Of a stretch of DNA of 64,000 nucleotides, positions 12,253 to 42,766 are shown piece after piece. Location of the stretch: NCBI RefSeq assembly GCF_024609325.1, contig NZ_JANHMQ010000001.1, positions 124,001 through 188,000 on the forward strand, given 5' to 3'. Below the pieces are notes generated by a model. It saw only the letters and a program-made list of their open reading frames with translations, ran no database searches and had not been told where the DNA came from. This DNA is from Geothrix fuzhouensis. Lineage in GTDB: Bacteria > Acidobacteriota > Holophagae > Holophagales > Holophagaceae. Positions within the stretch are counted from its first letter, which is position 1. Every line of letters begins with the position of its first letter. Made by a program: the position numbers and the translations under genes.

Positions 12253-13824
12253 TCAGGACAGGTGGGCCAGGGGGATGATCCCGAACCACAGGAGGTAGGT
12301 CAGGGCCAGGGCCATGATGCCGTCGATGCGTTCGCAGGGCGCACCCCGGCGGAGGTAGCGGAGGATGGCGCGGACCAGCAGAAGCGCGTGGGGGACGGCC
12401 AGGAAGATGGCGACTCCGCTGGCTCCGCCGAAGAGGCCCCACTGCTGCCAGAGCACCCCACAGGCGGCAGCGGCCACCGCGAATCCCAGGGCGGCCCAGG
12501 CGGCCCCCCGGCGGCCCAGCAGCACCGCCAGCGTCCGCTTGGCCACGGCCCCGTCCGCCTCGTGATCTGGCAAGGCGGACAGCGTGATGGCCGAAAGGGT
12601 GGCCAGGAACAGGGGCAGGCCCACAAGCCAGGGGAAGGGGTCCCGCCAGAGGCCGGACTGGAGCAGGCCTCCTACGAAAATGGCCGCGAAGCTGTGGGTG
12701 AGGCCCACGTCCAGCTCCCCCAGGCCCCGGTAGACGAGCCTCAGGGGGGGCACGGTGTAGCCCACGGCAAGCACCGCCAGGGCGATCATCGCCGCCAGAC
12801 CCGGTCGGCCGGCCGGGGCAAGGGCGGCGCCCAGGGCCGCCAGCCCCGTGCCCAGTGCCAAGGCCAACCCGGCCATGGCCCGCCGGACGCTGCTGGGGCC
12901 GAGCTCTCCGTCCGCCAGTACGCGGCTGCCGCCGTTGAAGGGGCCCGCGTGGCGGTTGAGCCGGTCCGTGCCCTGGTCGAACCACTCGTTGCTGACCACG
13001 GTGAGCGCCTCCATCAGGAAGAGGCACAGGTAGCCGAGCCAGTAGGTCCGGGTCGAGAAGGCGCCCCCGTGGCGCGACCCCGCCAGGGCGCCGATGGTGT
13101 AGGCCACCCAGGCCATGGGGTAGAACTGCAGGCGAAGCAACCGCAGCCACGCCCCGGCCCGTGCGCGCAGGCGGTGGCGGCGGAGGCGTCCGGGCAGTCG
13201 GGTCGCCTCCAACCGGACCTGTTCCAGCCACCGGGTCCGGGCCTCGGCGGTGGCGGGCTTCACGGGGGCGAAGGTGGAGATGAAGGTGGGCGCCACGCCG
13301 CAGAAGCCCAGCGTGGCCCGCCGCATGGCCTGGTGGCCGGGCTGGCGGTAGATGAGCCGGTAGACCCAGGATGGCGTGTCCATGGTCACCAGTAGATGGG
13401 CCGAGCGCCCCTTCAGGAGCTTCGTCCAGGTGGCGGGATCCTCCTCGTCGGTCGCGAAGGCGAAGCCGGGCGTGAGCACGCGGTCCAGGAAGCCCTTGAG
13501 CAGGGCAGGCAGGGTGCCCCACCAGGCGGGGTAGACGAAGACCAGGTGGTCAGCCCAACGGATCAGGGCCTGGGCCCGGGCCAGGTCCGGCTCCAGGGCC
13601 TGGTCCCGGGGCGAGGGCAGCCACACGTGGGGGTCGAAGGCGAGGTTGGCGAGGTCGAGGCGCTCGACCTCGAACCCGGCGGATCGGGCGCCTGCCTCAT
13701 AGGCCCCGGCGAGGGCCCCGCAGAAGCTGTCCACGCGGGGATGGCCGAGGATCACGAGAACCCTGGGCGTCGCGCCTTCCGTGGATGCCGCCACCTGCCC
13801 TCCGTCCGGATGGGATGGGGTCAT
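12253..13824 (-). CDS. Fusion of flavodoxin-fold NAD(P)H:quinone oxidoreductase-like domain and UbiA prenyltransferase
   Basis: This single frame of 523 residues joins two enzymes. Residues 20-205 look like the flavodoxin-fold quinone reductases of the MdaB/KefF/NQO type: VLVILGHPRVDSF at the FMN loop, F-V-Y-P-A-W-W-G-T-L-P at 97-106, and G-F-A-F further on. Residues 222-523 are a polytopic UbiA-type prenyltransferase. The first Asp motif is N279-x3-D283-x3-D287 and the second is D420-x3-D424 followed by A-K-R-T. UbiA enzymes transfer isoprenyl chains onto aromatic acceptors, as in ubiquinone, menaquinone and heme O synthesis. AGGAG lies 5 bp before the ATG. It follows ispE by 17 bp. The acceptor is unknown. 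Confidence 0.85.
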   Translation of the reverse strand: MTPSHPDGGQVAASTEGATPRVLVILGHPRVDSFCGALAGAYEAGARSAGFEVERLDLANLAFDPHVWLPSPRDQALEPDLARAQALIRWADHLVFVYPAWWGTLPALLKGFLDRVLTPGFAFATDEEDPATWTKLLKGRSAHLLVTMDTPSWVYRLIYRQPGHQAMRRATLGFCGVAPTFISTFAPVKPATAEARTRWLEQVRLEATRLPGRLRRHRLRARAGAWLRLLRLQFYPMAWVAYTIGALAGSRHGGAFSTRTYWLGYLCLFLMEALTVVSNEWFDQGTDRLNRHAGPFNGGSRVLADGELGPSSVRRAMAGLALALGTGLAALGAALAPAGRPGLAAMIALAVLAVGYTVPPLRLVYRGLGELDVGLTHSFAAIFVGGLLQSGLWRDPFPWLVGLPLFLATLSAITLSALPDHEADGAVAKRTLAVLLGRRGAAWAALGFAVAAAACGVLWQQWGLFGGASGVAIFLAVPHALLLVRAILRYLRRGAPCERIDGIMALALTYLLWFGIIPLAHLS

Positions 13825-13841: not shown

Positions 13842-14678
13842 TCAGACACGCCAGAGGTCCCAGTCGGGCCGGAGGCCGGAGATCCGCGCCGCGGCGGCGT
13901 CCCGGTCCTGAACGCGGGCGTACCGGGCCGCCCAGCAGCTGCCGGAGCCACAGAGCAGGGGCTCGCCGCTGGTGTCACGCAGGGCGTCACGCACCTCGGC
14001 CAGGGGCGGGCACACCCACAGGGCCGCGCCCGTGAGGTCGTTGCGCCAGGGCGGCACGGCGCCTTCAGGTTGCGAGGCCAGGGCCTCGGGAAAGGGATAG
14101 CCCACGTCCTGGAGGGCCCGGTACACGCTGGGCGTGCTCACATGCAGGCCCGGATGGACCAGCAGGATGGGTTCCAGCGGCACCGGCCGCAGGGGAAACA
14201 CCCGCTCGCCCCGGCCCAGGCCCAGCACGGTGCCGCCCAGCAGGAACAGGGGCACGTCGCTGCCCAGGCGGGCGGCCATCCTCAGCAGCACCTGATCTTC
14301 CAAGCCCAGGTCGAACATCCGGTTGCCCAGGCGGAGGGCGGCCGCCGCATCGCTGCTGCCGCCGCCGAGGCCCGCGCCGTGGGGGATGCGCTTCTCCAGG
14401 TGCAGGGTCGCAGGCAGGGGACGCTTCGCCTCTTCCTCCAGCAGGCGCCAGGCCTTGAGCACCAGGTTGGATTCGTCGGCCACCAAGCCATCACCCGTGG
14501 GGCCCGTGATGGCCAGGGTGAGGGTTGAAGCCGGTTCACCTTCCAGCGTGTCCGTCAGGTTGGCCACACCTTCCAGCACGGTGGTGACCAGCTCCAGTTC
14601 GTGGAACCCGTCCGCCCGTCGCCCGAGGACGGCGAGAAAGCGGTTGAGCTTGGCGGGAGCCTGGATTGCGAGAACCAT
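13842..14678 (-). CDS. ispE: 4-diphosphocytidyl-2-C-methyl-D-erythritol kinase
   Basis: This is the GHMP-family kinase of the MEP pathway, which phosphorylates CDP-methylerythritol with ATP on the way to IPP and DMAPP. The 278-residue length is usual. The N-terminal A-P-A-K-L-N-R-F-L-A-V and R-R-A-D-G-F-H-E-L motifs bind substrate, and the ATP loop IPHGAGLGGGSSDAAA is complete. The C-terminal C-G-S-G-S-C-W-A replaces the more common M-S-G-S-G. The ATG at 14678 is preferred over a TTG six codons upstream at 14696. It is the first gene of a minus-strand run that continues into the UbiA fusion, which would consume isoprenoid product. Confidence 0.93.
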   Translation of the reverse strand: MVLAIQAPAKLNRFLAVLGRRADGFHELELVTTVLEGVANLTDTLEGEPASTLTLAITGPTGDGLVADESNLVLKAWRLLEEEAKRPLPATLHLEKRIPHGAGLGGGSSDAAAALRLGNRMFDLGLEDQVLLRMAARLGSDVPLFLLGGTVLGLGRGERVFPLRPVPLEPILLVHPGLHVSTPSVYRALQDVGYPFPEALASQPEGAVPPWRNDLTGAALWVCPPLAEVRDALRDTSGEPLLCGSGSCWAARYARVQDRDAAAARISGLRPDWDLWRV

Positions 14679-14716
14679 GGCTCCAAGGTAGCGCAACCAT
14701 CCGTTACGCTCAGAGG

Positions 14717-38096: not shown

Positions 38097-38127
38097 GAAC
38101 CTGGGCCTGCCTCCGAGGTCCAGGTTC
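38097..38127. terminator. Bidirectional hairpin between S53 and ppc genes
   Basis: GAACCTGG (38097-38104) pairs with CCAGGTTC (38120-38127). The repeat lies between convergent stops and overlaps the ppc stop codon, so it can end transcripts from both sides. There is no strong U run. Confidence 0.5.
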
Positions 38128-40876
38128 AGCCGCTGTTTCGCAGGCCCGCGGCGATGCCGTTGATGGTGAGGAGGATGCTGCGCACGGTGAGGTCGTCGCT
38201 GTCGCTGGCCCGGTAGCGGCGCAGCAGCTCCACTTGGAGGTGGTTCAAGGGGTCGAGGTAGGGGAAGCGATGCTGGATGGAGCGCTTCAGGGCGGGATTG
38301 TCCTCCAGCAATTCACGTTGCCCGGTGATGGCCTTAAGCGCGCGGATGGAGGCAGCGCACTCCTCCTGCAGGCGGCCGAAGATCCGGTCTCTCAAGGCCG
38401 TATCGCTCACCAGGTCCGCATAGCGGGAGGCGATCCCAAGGTCCACCTTGGCGAGCACCATGTCCATGTTGGAGAGCAGGTCGCGGAACGTGGGCCAGCG
38501 GGCGTGCATCTCCCGCAACAAGGTCAGACCGACTTCGCCGCGCTCCCGTTGGAAGGCTTCGACCGCCGCACCGAACCCGTACCAGCCCGGCAGCATCAGG
38601 CGGCATTGGCTCCAGCTGAAGACCCAGGGGATGGCGCGGAGGTCCGTGATGGCGTGGCCCGCCTTCCGGCTGGCCGGCCTCGAGCCGATGTTGAGCTGGG
38701 CAATCTCGGCGATGGGCGTGGACTCCCAGAAGAACTGCTCAAAGCCCTCCGTTCCGTACACGAGATCGCGATAGGCCCGGCAGGCCTCGTTCGAGAGCGC
38801 ATCCATGGCTTCCGGGAAGCGGGGGTCCATCCTCACGCCATCGGCATCCGGAAGGCTCCCCTCCAGAGTGGCGGCTACCAGCACGTCAAGGTTGCGGCGG
38901 GCCACGGCCGGATGACCGTACTTGGCGGCGATCACCTCGCCCTGCTCGGTCAGGCGGATCTGGCCGCGCACCGCACCAGGCGGCTGGGCGAGGATGGCCT
39001 CGTAGCTGGGTCCGCCGCCCCGGCCCACGGACCCGCCGCGGCCATGGAAGAGTCGCAGGCGGATGCCATGGCGCCTGGCCACCTCCACCAGGCGCAACTC
39101 AGCTTTATAGAGCTCCCACCGCGAGGTGAGAAACCCGCCGTCCTTGTTGCTGTCTGAATAGCCCAGCATCACCTCCTGCACGTTGTCGCGGCTGTCCAGC
39201 AGCCGCCGGTAGAAGGGCAGCCGGAGCAATCCATCCATGATGTCGCCGCAACGCTGCAGGTCCTCGATGGTTTCGAAGAGGGGGATGAGGTTGCTGTCGA
39301 GGCGGCTCTGCGCTGGGCGCAGGATCCCCGCCTCCCGCAGCATCACGGCGGCTTCCAAGAGATCGGAGACGCTCTCCGTGTGGCTGACGATGCAGCTGGG
39401 GAGGGTCTCCACCCCCAGGCGTTGCTGGGCCTCGGCAGCGGCGCGGAACAAAGCCAGCTCGCCCTGGGCCTCCTCGCTGTACGGCAAGTAGGGCGAGGCG
39501 AGAGGACGCGGGCTACCCAACTCGGACACCAGCAAGGCCACCCGTTCCGCTTCGCCCAAGCCCAGGTACCTGGTGCCTGGCCGCACGGCCTCCAGCAGCT
39601 CGGCCACCACCCGTTCATGGACCTCGGAGCTCTGCCGCAGGTCCAGCGGCGCGAGGTGGAAGCCGAACACTGATATCGACCGGCGCAGGTCCCGCAGGCG
39701 GCCCCGGGCCAGCAGCCGGCCCCCGTGGGCGCGCAAAGAACGGTCCAGCGTGTCCAGATCCGCTGTCAGCTCTACGGGTGTGCGATAGGGCTCCACTGGT
39801 CCGGGTAGGGGAGCTGCCTCAGAGGCCACCTCGTTCCGATGGGTGGCCGAGAGCCGCTCGAAGATCAACGAGAGGGCCCGCCGATAGACTTCGTCCACAT
39901 GCTGGGGAGATTTGTCCGGAGACCGTTCCGCCAAGTCCTGAACCTCCTGGGAGGCCCGGGTGACTTGCAGGCTGAGGGAGAGTTCCTCGCCGAGGGCGCG
40001 CGTCTCCCGAAGCAGGAATTCCAGGATGGTGCGGGACTGCATCCGCAGCGTCTGCTGAAGCACTTGGGCGGTGACAAAGGGATTGCCGTCCCGATCGCCG
40101 CCGATCCAGCTGCCGACCTGGAAGAAGGGGGGCAGCTCAGTCTCACCCCAGGCCGGGTCCAGCCCGAGCCGATCCTCCAGATCCGCATAGAGGGCAGGAA
40201 CCTCCTTCAGGAAGGTGCGGTCGAAGTAGGAGAGGGCGCCGGTTACCTCGTCGGCCACCGCCGGCCGCTGGGGCCGCAGCATGCGGGTCTGCCAGAGCAG
40301 CAACACCTGCCGCTGCAAGTGTTCGTCCCGGAGCGCCGTTTCTCTTGGAGTCGAGGCATGGCGGTCACGCTCATCGAGCAGTCGGGCGATCTCCATCTGG
40401 GCATGCAGGATGCTTTTGCGCTGTACTTCGGTGGGATGGGCGGTCAGCACAGGGCGGACCTGGGCGCTGGCGAAGAAGGCCCGCAGGCCAACTGCATCCA
40501 GCCCCGCACGGGCGGCCCGGTTAAGGGCGTGGCCCAGGGAACTGGGCCTGGGTGGGGCGCTCCCCATGTGGTGGGCGCGGGAGCGCCGGATGTGGTGCTG
40601 GTCCTCCGCCAGGTTGGCGAGCTGGGAGAAGTAGCTGAAGGCGCGAACCACCAGAATGGCGCGTCCGGGACTGAGGTCTTTCAGGATGGCCTTCAGCTCA
40701 ATATCAGCGCTTGGATCCAGCGCCCTGTGGAAGCGCACCGAACTTTGCCGGATCCGCTCGACGAGCTGGAAGGTCTCCTCGCCTTCCTGCAGCCGGACCG
40801 TGTCCCCCAGCAGCCGCCCGAGCAGACGGATGTCCTCCTTCAGGGGGAAATCCTTGTCAGGGTGGTCGGAGTCCAT
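38126..40876 (-). CDS. ppc: Phosphoenolpyruvate carboxylase
   Basis: PEPC carboxylates PEP with bicarbonate to oxaloacetate, replenishing the TCA cycle. The product is 916 residues, the bacterial norm. Catalytic and signature stretches are present: V-L-T-A-H-P-T-E-V-Q-R-K near residue 150, F-H-G-R-G-G-S-V-G-R-G-G-G-P, and M-L-G-Y-S-D-S-N-K-D-G-G. The C-terminus I-N-G-I-A-A-G-L-R-N-S-G is close to the family end R-N-T-G. The start at 40876 (MDSDHPDKDF) is taken because the upstream open frame is antisense to ispH. It is divergent from the ispH fusion. Confidence 0.96.
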   Translation of the reverse strand: MDSDHPDKDFPLKEDIRLLGRLLGDTVRLQEGEETFQLVERIRQSSVRFHRALDPSADIELKAILKDLSPGRAILVVRAFSYFSQLANLAEDQHHIRRSRAHHMGSAPPRPSSLGHALNRAARAGLDAVGLRAFFASAQVRPVLTAHPTEVQRKSILHAQMEIARLLDERDRHASTPRETALRDEHLQRQVLLLWQTRMLRPQRPAVADEVTGALSYFDRTFLKEVPALYADLEDRLGLDPAWGETELPPFFQVGSWIGGDRDGNPFVTAQVLQQTLRMQSRTILEFLLRETRALGEELSLSLQVTRASQEVQDLAERSPDKSPQHVDEVYRRALSLIFERLSATHRNEVASEAAPLPGPVEPYRTPVELTADLDTLDRSLRAHGGRLLARGRLRDLRRSISVFGFHLAPLDLRQSSEVHERVVAELLEAVRPGTRYLGLGEAERVALLVSELGSPRPLASPYLPYSEEAQGELALFRAAAEAQQRLGVETLPSCIVSHTESVSDLLEAAVMLREAGILRPAQSRLDSNLIPLFETIEDLQRCGDIMDGLLRLPFYRRLLDSRDNVQEVMLGYSDSNKDGGFLTSRWELYKAELRLVEVARRHGIRLRLFHGRGGSVGRGGGPSYEAILAQPPGAVRGQIRLTEQGEVIAAKYGHPAVARRNLDVLVAATLEGSLPDADGVRMDPRFPEAMDALSNEACRAYRDLVYGTEGFEQFFWESTPIAEIAQLNIGSRPASRKAGHAITDLRAIPWVFSWSQCRLMLPGWYGFGAAVEAFQRERGEVGLTLLREMHARWPTFRDLLSNMDMVLAKVDLGIASRYADLVSDTALRDRIFGRLQEECAASIRALKAITGQRELLEDNPALKRSIQHRFPYLDPLNHLQVELLRRYRASDSDDLTVRSILLTINGIAAGLRNSG

Positions 40877-41011
40877 GGCTGGGATCCCCTCAGGCTCTTG
40901 AAATAAAGGCCGGCCTGGACCCCAGCGTAAAGGAATTCGGGATTTCAAGGATTGTGGATGTGGCGACAGACACGCTGTGCGTTGGGTCGGTGGGAGCGCT
41001 ATGATGAATAA

Positions 41012-41030
41012 CCTGACCAACCCGGTCAGG
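41012..41030 (+). promoter_or_regulatory. Palindromic operator-like site upstream of the ispH fusion
   Basis: CCTGACC (41012-41018) and GGTCAGG (41024-41030) form a perfect 7-bp inverted repeat with a 5-nt spacer. TATGAT at 41000-41005 lies just upstream as a possible -10 box, so the repeat would sit at the transcription start. The arms and spacing resemble Rrf2/IscR-type sites; a 5'-UTR hairpin is the alternative. Confidence 0.4.
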
Positions 41031-41044
41031 ATTCTGGGGCACCC

Positions 41045-42766
41045 ATGAAAGTCATCGTCGCCAAGACTGCGGGGTTCTGCTGGGGCGTCAAGCGCGCCAT
41101 GGACGCGGTACTGGAAGCTTCCATGCGGAACGACGGCCGCACCGTCCAGACCTTGGGGCCCCTCATCCACAATCCCCAGGCGCTGGCCCTCATCGGCAAG
41201 CGGGGGGTGGCGGTGGCCGAGGCCCCGGACCAGGTCCAAGCCGGAACGGTGGTGATCCGTGCGCATGGCATCCCCATCCAGGATCTGCGCGGACTCAAGG
41301 AGCGCCAGGCCAAGGGCGAGCTGAAGATCGTGAACGCCACGTGCCCCGAGGTGGCCAAGGTCCACCACAAGATCAAGAAGTGGAGCCCCAAGGGCTACTT
41401 CACCGTGATTCTGGGCAGCCATGGCCATGCGGAAAGTTTGGCCCACCGCAGTTTTGCGGACAGTGGGTCGCTGATCGTGTCGAATATGGCCGAAGCCGAG
41501 GCCCTCACGGATGCACAGCTCAGGAAAGTGCTGGTGGTGGCCCAGACCACCTTCACCGTGAAGGACTACCACGCCATCACGGATTACATCCGGACCCGGG
41601 CCGTGGACGGAGTCTTTGAAAACACCATCTGCGAAGACACCTGGATGCGCCAGGACGAGGCCAAGGAACTGGCCCGCACGGTGGATACGGTGATTGTCGT
41701 GGGCGGCAAGACCTCCAGCAACACCAAGCATCTGGCCGAACTGGCCCACCACTACGGTAAGCCCGTGCAATACGTGGAGACCGCGGCGGAATTGGATCTG
41801 AAGGCTTTCACCGGCCGGGAAACCGTAGGCGTGCTGGCTGGTGCCTCCACGCCCACCTGGTTGGTGGACGAGGTGGTGGATGTGCTTGAGCAGTTGGGGG
41901 ACGGCCCGAGCCGCTGGCGCAGCTTCCTCCAGGCGGCCTTCGGCAGTTCTTCGCTGCTGGCCATGGGGGCGGGCTTCATGACCCTCGGTGTGCACAAGTG
42001 GCTGGGCTTGCCCCTGGGCTGGCGTTACCCACTCCTGGCGGGAACCTACGTACTGGCGATGTACCTGTTGACCCCCTACCTGGACCCGCTGGGGCTTGGC
42101 GCCAAGGGCCCAGCGCGGGCGCGGTTCCTAGAGCGTAATCGCAGCATCCTGCTGTCCGCGGGTCTGGTGGCCCTGACCCTCACGCTGGGACTGGCGGCCA
42201 CCCTGGGCCTGAAGGCTCTGGTCGTGGCAGTGGGGGCCTCCGTGGTGGGTGCGGGCTACAAGCGGCGCTTCCAGGTGGGCCGTCGCGTCTTCAGCCTGCG
42301 CAGCATCCCCGGCTCCAAGGATGTGGTGGTGGCCCTGGCGCTAGCCACGGTGGCGGTGATTATGCCGGTTTGGCAGGAGGGGCGGGTCTGGGACCTGCGC
42401 GCCTTCGCCGCCGTCTTCCTGGTGGGCGTCCTGGCGTTCGTCCGCACCGTCATCTACGAAATCCGGGACATGCAGAATGATCAGATCGTCGGCAAGGAGA
42501 CCCTGCCGATCCTCATGGGCAAAGCAGCCACCAAGGCGGTGCTGGTGGGATTGCTGGGCATCCTTCTGGCTGGGACTCTCTGGCTGACCTTCGACAACCG
42601 CCAGAATGGACATCCCCTGGCCGTGGCGCTGGTCCTGGTGGTCTGCGCCGCCTACCCGGTGCTGTATCTGTGGCTCTTCCATGAGCGCTTCACCGCCGGG
42701 AGGCACCGGTTCGAACTGAGCGTGGACCTGAGTTTCTGGCTGGTGGGCTTGCTGGCCATCGTGTAG
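41045..42766 (+). CDS. ispH: IspH (HMBPP reductase) fused to a UbiA-type membrane domain
   Basis: This is one uninterrupted 573-residue frame. Residues 1-282 form complete IspH, the [4Fe-4S] enzyme that makes IPP and DMAPP: cysteines C12 (G-F-C-W-G-V-K-R-A), C100 (N-A-T-C-P) and C196 (N-T-I-C-E-D-T), plus I-H-N-P, R-A-H-G, G-S-H-G-H-A-E and T-T-F. Residues 295-573 are eight or so hydrophobic helices of UbiA type, with the second Asp motif Y-E-I-R-D475-M-Q-N-D479 followed by G-K484-E-T-L-P. The first Asp motif region (about 341-360, Y-L-D-P-L-G-L-G-A-K-G-P-A-R-A-R) is degenerate. The second half may bind prenyl substrates or act as an anchor. Confidence 0.87.
   Translation: MKVIVAKTAGFCWGVKRAMDAVLEASMRNDGRTVQTLGPLIHNPQALALIGKRGVAVAEAPDQVQAGTVVIRAHGIPIQDLRGLKERQAKGELKIVNATCPEVAKVHHKIKKWSPKGYFTVILGSHGHAESLAHRSFADSGSLIVSNMAEAEALTDAQLRKVLVVAQTTFTVKDYHAITDYIRTRAVDGVFENTICEDTWMRQDEAKELARTVDTVIVVGGKTSSNTKHLAELAHHYGKPVQYVETAAELDLKAFTGRETVGVLAGASTPTWLVDEVVDVLEQLGDGPSRWRSFLQAAFGSSSLLAMGAGFMTLGVHKWLGLPLGWRYPLLAGTYVLAMYLLTPYLDPLGLGAKGPARARFLERNRSILLSAGLVALTLTLGLAATLGLKALVVAVGASVVGAGYKRRFQVGRRVFSLRSIPGSKDVVVALALATVAVIMPVWQEGRVWDLRAFAAVFLVGVLAFVRTVIYEIRDMQNDQIVGKETLPILMGKAATKAVLVGLLGILLAGTLWLTFDNRQNGHPLAVALVLVVCAAYPVLYLWLFHERFTAGRHRFELSVDLSFWLVGLLAIV

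Follow-up and report, generated by a model that had tools for sequence, protein, structure and literature searches.

A probably membrane-linked IspH in Geothrix fuzhouensis and its relatives: IspH fused to a UbiA-fold domain with a partly lost active site

Background

What does a membrane domain of the UbiA fold do at the end of IspH, an enzyme that is essential where the methylerythritol phosphate (MEP) pathway is the sole route, attracts study as a drug target and is generally treated as soluble? The question is raised by a stretch of 64,000 nucleotides of Geothrix fuzhouensis DNA (assembly GCF_024609325.1, contig NZ_JANHMQ010000001.1, positions 124,001 to 188,000), hereafter the window, in which an earlier sequence-only reading had found IspH joined to a UbiA-type prenyltransferase domain. 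The linkage itself is not new: IspH-UbiA fusions were described in 2015 by Rao et al. as 47 'Rosetta stone' proteins, primarily from Desulfobacterales, with a UbiA part of unknown function (PMC4746011). The kind of fusion is already known; its host range here is broader than the accessible text of PMC4746011 describes, and a damaged UbiA active site is not mentioned there.

The explanation we favour, with moderate confidence, is that the protein is a membrane-tethered IspH, the only one found in its genome, with a UbiA half that is largely non-catalytic. The UbiA half is probably a membrane anchor or a binding domain rather than an enzyme.

Gene and domain structure

Translation of window positions 41045-42766 (+) gives a single frame of 573 codons plus stop, as had been claimed. 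Pfam LYTB (PF02401) spans residues 3-281 (E 1.4e-78, 264.3 bits against a cut-off of 24.5) and Pfam UbiA (PF01040) residues 370-546 (46.6 bits, cut-off 34.2). The IspH part additionally scores 251.3 bits with NCBIfam TIGR00216 (ispH_lytB), above the cut-off of 187.85. A structure model was built from 27 aligned fusions, with a mean predicted local distance difference test score (pLDDT) of 83.5 and a predicted template modelling score (pTM) of 0.73. In a fold search this model matches the IspH structure 3szu with Z 31.3, and its residues 297-573 match the UbiA homolog 4od5 with Z 18.2 and a root-mean-square deviation (rmsd) of 3.3 over 251 residues. Since the Pfam, NCBIfam and model matches agree, both halves are what they had been said to be, IspH and a UbiA fold, and a non-UbiA fold was not seen for the C-terminal half.

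The sequence-only reading had also considered a repurposed transporter-like domain, which finds no support in the fold matches. Besides IspH, the 50 matches shown are UbiA-fold and isoprenyl-diphosphate-synthase-type chains; the absence of other folds among these 50 proves nothing, because one domain can fill such a list.

For counting residues we used 172 frames of at least 480 amino acids (aa) and more than 200 bits, reduced to 94 distinct fusions by their last 400 residues. The partial loci L045, L052, L053 and L054 were excluded. As 54 of the 94 come from Holophagaceae, the window's own among them, the counts are not independent. Family codes (f1, f2 and so on) are group labels, and f1 was equated with Holophagaceae through near-identical sequences.

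C12, C100 and C196, which we take to be the cluster cysteines, and H42, H74, H128 and E130, presumably active-site residues as in IspH structures, are invariant in 94/94 fusions, the window's included; the three cysteines had been picked out correctly from the sequence. This half is best explained as a putatively normal [4Fe-4S] enzyme that would convert (E)-4-hydroxy-3-methylbut-2-enyl diphosphate (HMBPP) to isopentenyl diphosphate (IPP) and dimethylallyl diphosphate (DMAPP). The genome (3.3 Mb, 97% complete) has one LYTB match, and the fused IspH is therefore the sole IspH found in it. There is one GcpE/IspG in the genome, and IspE lies in the window at 13842-14696 (TIGR00154, above cut-off). 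The closest named records are from G. campi and G. oryzisoli (Geothrix), at 93%.

Table 1. Positions of the fused gene, its halves and its residue motifs in the window
Feature	Window position	Strand	Remarks
ispH-ubiA fusion gene	41045..42766	+	573 codons plus stop; in 39/39 family genomes drawn
IspH (LytB) half, residues 1-285, with C12, C100, C196, E130	41045..41899	+	PF02401, TIGR00216, 3szu model match
UbiA-fold membrane half, residues 286-573	41900..42763	+	PF01040, model, 4od5 match
Long helices of the UbiA half (model)			residues 287-320, 327-346, 366-387, 389-405, 424-445, 451-477, 493-517, 524-551, 562-571
First Asp motif remnant, residues 343-351	42071..42097	+	T343 (N68 of AfUbiA), D347 (D72), L351 (D76)
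Y405, counterpart of the near-universal UbiA tyrosine Y139	42257..42259	+	Tyr in 92/94 fusions
IPGSKD segment, residues 421-426	42305..42322	+	K425 in 92/94 fusions
Second Asp motif D475-M-Q-N-D479 (D198, D202 of AfUbiA)	42467..42481	+	

State of the UbiA active site

In AfUbiA, Mg2+ is coordinated by N68, D72, D198 and D202, whereas D76 is too distant for direct binding, and Y139 is the single most conserved UbiA residue (PMC4106721). N68A and D72A abolish binding of geranyl diphosphate (GPP) to AfUbiA, D198A and D202A being comparatively mild, and EcMenA loses its function when the equivalent of N68, D72, D198, D202 or Y139 is mutated (PMC4106721).

The first UbiA motif, NDxxDxxxD, is absent from the window protein, which reads T-x3-D-x3-L, and the second motif, DxxxD, is present (D475, D479, followed by K484, all where they had been placed). 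The claim that most of the first motif was lost comes close: the Asn and the last Asp are gone (T343, L351), but the middle Asp, D347, is kept. Because the first motif fails, we call the protein UbiA-fold and not a UbiA-type enzyme. The register of motif 1 follows locus L220, a stand-alone relative with the intact motif N-K-W-T-D-T-D-E-D, to which the window protein was aligned with HMMER. A comparison by hhalign of the UbiA half with six UbiA/MqnP-like paralogs is weak (probability 6.7, E 0.0054) and agrees with this register. Models of named prenyltransferases match the UbiA half far below their cut-offs, the best with 38.2 against 238 bits.

Among the 94 fusions, position 343 is Asn in 37, 347 is Asp in 75, 405 is Tyr in 92, 475 is Asp in 87 and 479 is Asp in 92; residue 351, the third Asp of motif 1 and counterpart of D76, is acidic in none (0/94). 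Position 343 is Thr or Ser in 48/54 Holophagaceae, and position 347 is Arg, Asn, Glu, Ser or Ala in 19/94. The complete set N68-D72-Y139-D198-D202 is found in 23/94 fusions: 2/54 from Holophagaceae, 3/6 from family f2, 0/5 from other Acidobacteriota, 11/11 and 7/16 from the phyla of loci L047 and L049, and 0/2 second copies. The losses vary by lineage, with Asn replaced by Ser, Thr or Ala, the D72 counterpart by Arg, Ser, Asn or Glu, and a motif-2 Asp by Ile, Val, Asn, Ser or Ala. A tree of 52 rows (14 Holophagaceae with the window and 38 others, second copies L122 and L123 excluded), made by a quick method with the five key columns left in, needs at least five changes between complete and broken, or four if starred branches alone count.

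Other features of this half are firmly kept. G402, Y405, P422, K425, P441, D479, G483, P488 and G492 are each conserved in at least 95% of the 94 fusions. The window was also compared with each of 18 loci from Geothrix or Holophagaceae. The ratio of nonsynonymous to synonymous substitution rates (dN/dS) lies at 0.04-0.12 in IspH and at 0.08-0.22 in the UbiA half; it is higher in the UbiA half in all 18 comparisons, yet far below 1. The UbiA half is under purifying selection. Given the low dN/dS and the residues kept in at least 95%, it is not decaying as a whole, and its pocket is partly among its most conserved features.

Distribution of the fusion

We surveyed 396 genomes of Acidobacteriota, with up to three candidates scored per genome. 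The fusion is present in 39/39 genomes drawn from the window's family and is therefore not a chance event; 38 reach residue 570 or beyond, and the one in genome G390 runs to residue 530 at a contig edge. It was also found in six genomes of f2, a further family of the class, in two of f20 and in one each of f9, f27 and f28. In the two f3 genomes, from the same class, IspH stands by itself, and the lower matches among those listed from the 396 genomes cover the IspH part only.

A profile of the UbiA half gave 51 places in 50/396 Acidobacteriota genomes at E <= 1e-20, all of them fused frames of at least 525 aa. No stand-alone UbiA half was seen at this threshold in the 396 genomes, where up to five candidates were scored each and weaker or hidden copies are possible. 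The single stand-alone relative found is L220, a 274-aa frame in genome G429 (E 2e-14, 54.6 bits).

Outside Acidobacteriota the same IspH-UbiA order occurs in two further phyla. In the phylum of L049 (records of Nitrospinota, Nitrospinaceae or Nitrospirae) a full-length fusion was found in 16/24 genomes, partial matches in four and none in four. In the phylum of L047 (Nitrospinia records) 11/77 genomes have the fusion; of the remainder, 56 have a match at E <= 1e-10 that is an IspH-only frame or a fragment, and 10 have nothing. The fusion in genome G312 may be a binning error, as this genome is 76% complete.

A LYTB search of 12 genomes included 10 with the fusion. A single LYTB match is present in eight of these; G282 and G314 each carry two, both of them fusions. 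The second IspH-UbiA copies, L122 (5054-6604, +) and L123 (4915-6459, -), are about 515 aa long; their IspH residues are intact, and their UbiA half is shortened and has eroded further.

Phylogeny

The IspH-domain tree was built from 54 rows, 34 fused and 20 stand-alone (18 from places listed in the Acidobacteriota survey and the two from f3). The root was not inferred, and the placement of L120 and L121, which have long branches, is unsure. All fused IspH domains fall together with two stand-alone proteins of family f77 on one side of a branch with support 100/96. An exclusive clade of fusions was rejected in an approximately unbiased (AU) test at a modest p of 0.034, since the two f77 proteins fall inside. 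The simplest reading of this tree would be one gain of the fusion and one later loss in f77. In the two f77 genomes the profile that matched in the 396-genome survey finds no UbiA half at E <= 1. That f77 lost the UbiA half and kept IspH suggests that this half is dispensable, and we count this in favour of a largely non-catalytic UbiA half.

In f77 the stand-alone IspH heads a squalene-type operon (L198, 4991-9035; L199, 4909-6637). HpnC directly follows IspH in both loci, and HpnD and HpnE come next in L198, all above NCBIfam cut-offs.

A probable tethering of IspH

Taken together, these results fit a history in which IspH would have acquired a prenyltransferase domain once, parts of the catalytic site then being lost in several lines while the fusion was kept. 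In Geothrix, where motif 1 lacks its Asn and its final Asp, classical prenyl transfer has most likely ceased. The UbiA half, predicted to insert into the membrane, would hold IspH at the cytoplasmic membrane face, near membrane enzymes that use prenyl diphosphates, and this nearness may be what the cell gains. Both Asp motifs of AfUbiA are on the cytoplasmic side (PMC4106721), so the N-terminal IspH is plausibly at the cytoplasmic face as well. Membrane tethering, which had been put forward as a consequence of the linkage, thus appears likely.

Tethering alone accounts for the fusion and the erosion and explains the conserved pocket less well. The remaining pocket (Tyr, Lys and Asp-x3-Asp) may have kept the ability to bind a ligand, which could be a prenyl diphosphate, another phosphate-bearing compound or a lipid. 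The choice left by the sequence-only reading between catalysis and anchoring has in this way been narrowed rather than settled. Residues that EcMenA needs are lost in several lineages, which speaks against catalysis. The near-invariance of the pocket Tyr, of one Lys and of the final Asp, on the other hand, is not something that a plain anchor would need.

Alternative explanations

Several observations weigh against the reading we favour. The five directly acting residues are all kept in every fusion of the L047 phylum and in seven of the 16 from the L049 phylum, so the UbiA half could be an enzyme there; activity is most possible in lineages with all five. Furthermore, D347, Y405, D475 and D479 are all present in 50/54 Holophagaceae, and the Ser or Thr at position 343 could bind Mg2+. 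The counterpart of the position that is never acidic, D76 of AfUbiA, makes no direct contact with Mg2+ (PMC4106721), and some fusions outside Holophagaceae have an acidic residue at 349. Conservation of Y405, K425 and D479, each in 92/94, goes beyond the needs of an anchor. Finally, recognition as UbiA is poor for two of the most divergent members: Pfam UbiA finds nothing in L121 at E <= 0.01 and gives L123 no more than 17.8 bits, so that their residue columns are less sure.

The four residues kept in 50/54 Holophagaceae would suit a bifunctional protein, in which the UbiA half is an active prenyltransferase with an unnamed acceptor and uses prenyl diphosphates that derive from the IPP and DMAPP of IspH. 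Purifying selection on this half and the 23 fusions with all five residues also fit such an enzyme. Two loci, L049 (7774-8790, +) and L051 (7749-8756, +), encode a methyltransferase with a dimerisation domain (PF00891) immediately after the fusion, an arrangement that might be met in a lipid or quinone pathway. This explanation is close to the one preferred by Rao et al. 2015 (PMC4746011). We regard it as the strongest rival, though an unlikely one. The residues essential in EcMenA are lost at varying positions across lineages with the fusion retained. It is established pathway knowledge that the C5 products of IspH have yet to be lengthened by a polyprenyl synthase. In addition, five UbiA-family proteins of the genome exceed the Pfam cut-off, the fusion and four others. 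Motif 1 of these four, judged by eye, is N-x3-D-x3-D in two, N-x3-D-x3-G in one and N-x3-E-x3-D in one. The last is nearest to heme O synthase, below the cut-off of that model, and another of the four exceeds the cut-off of TIGR01475, a model for a UbiA-like subfamily.

Less probable again is a sensor, in which the UbiA half would bind a prenyl diphosphate and tune the activity or stability of IspH, by analogy with UBIAD1, geranylgeranyl diphosphate (GGPP) and HMG CoA reductase (HMGCR). N102 of UBIAD1 is homologous to N68 of AfUbiA (PMC4106721), the position that is Thr or Ser in 48/54 Holophagaceae; N102S is reported to blunt enzymatic activity, and the complex with HMGCR was solved with this variant (PMC9314443). 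The pocket residues conserved across the 94 fusions would suit a binding site. The fold search also lists the HMGCR-UBIAD1 structure 8djk at rank 37 (Z 14.0), but it is matched there simply as a chain with the UbiA fold, alongside many other helical hits. However, N68A and D72A abolish GPP binding in AfUbiA (PMC4106721), and the D72 position is replaced in 19/94 fusions. The likeness to UBIAD1 is one of analogy only, and nothing seen ties the UbiA half to regulation of IspH. In a more specific form, which we hold to be improbable, a retired prenyltransferase would serve as a membrane sensor, its Tyr/Lys/Asp pocket binding a downstream prenyl diphosphate and feeding back on the last MEP step. 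If a sensor it were, the protein would be an independently evolved bacterial counterpart of UBIAD1-HMG CoA reductase.

An artefact, or two proteins made by read-through, assembly error or an internal start, is hardly credible: against the Met residues at 307 (8/94) and 312 (56/94), both inside the first membrane helix and the only points found in its favour, stand the same architecture in 39/39 family genomes and in other phyla and the lack of a stand-alone UbiA-half match at E <= 1e-20 in the 396 Acidobacteriota genomes. The linker, residues 280-299, is without Met in 76/94 fusions, and the conserved internal start that the sequence-only reading had named as a possible objection was not seen there as a Met in the 94 fusions, GTG and TTG starts not being tested.

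Relation to known systems

The tethered IspH we favour shares with the proteins of Rao et al. 2015 (PMC4746011) an N-terminal IspH, a C-terminal UbiA-like membrane domain in the same chain and a separate UbiA/MenA in the genome. That paper describes its proteins as coming from sulfate-reducing anaerobes and as having two DXXXD repeats. The present hosts are Holophagaceae and others, and the first of the two repeats is broken. We keep the window protein as a variant of this kind of fusion, because PMC4746011, in its accessible text, gives the two repeats as an observation and not as a criterion of membership. Our literature search, which covered titles and the starts of abstracts and had most subscription papers outside its reach, found no further study of the IspH-UbiA fusion.

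IspH-RPS1 fusions (PMC4746011; NF000907) likewise have a C-terminal partner, and their RPS1 domains are not essential for IspH catalysis. In contrast to the present case, that partner consists of S1 repeats and does not lie in the membrane. With the RPS1 fusion model, whose cut-off is 624, the window protein reaches 262.3 bits, and the match is confined to residues 1-284. UBIAD1 binds and protects HMGCR, an example of a UbiA fold that can act on an isoprenoid reductase (PMC9314443). There, too, a UbiA-fold protein is joined to a key reductase of isoprenoid-precursor synthesis, but the reductase and the pathway are others, the partners are two proteins and the system is eukaryotic, so that the comparison is an analogy only. 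AfUbiA (4tq3), ApUbiA (4od5) and EcMenA share the fold, the second Asp motif and the pocket Tyr with the window protein and differ in their canonical first motif, N-x3-D-x3-D.

A family-wide membrane IspH, with the fold kept and the chemistry partly lost, would offer a natural test of why cells anchor isoprenoid-precursor synthesis. Its natural variants, complete, eroded and in one lineage without the domain, could help to find out whether a UbiA fold can work as a module for binding or sensing.

Gene neighbourhoods and other observations

No consistent partner gene was seen next to the fusion in the 13 loci listed. In f2 a xylose-isomerase-like TIM barrel (PF01261) is directly upstream (L112 and L115 by Pfam, L111 by sequence likeness). 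The neighbours in the window are a phosphoenolpyruvate carboxylase on the opposite strand, a 104-aa frame and a frame of the short-chain dehydrogenase/reductase (SDR) type, below the cut-offs shown. Operon context was rejected as a clue to function, as the neighbours in f2, in L049 and L051 and in the window do not converge.

In genome G286 a frame of 635 aa (L120, 3599-5506, -) is next to the fusion. It begins with a pyruvate:ferredoxin oxidoreductase (POR) gamma-type domain, after which come a class I tRNA synthetase domain (W and Y) and an S4 domain.

A mechanical frame of 1289 aa at 38126-41995 (-) of the window overlaps ispH. Its last 916 residues are the phosphoenolpyruvate carboxylase, and its upstream part, antisense to ispH, is probably non-coding.

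The window holds a second UbiA fusion at 12253-13824 (-), beside ispE, in which Flavodoxin_2 is followed by UbiA in one 523-aa frame. Near-full-length matches to it were found in 11/61 family genomes, and any match in 33.
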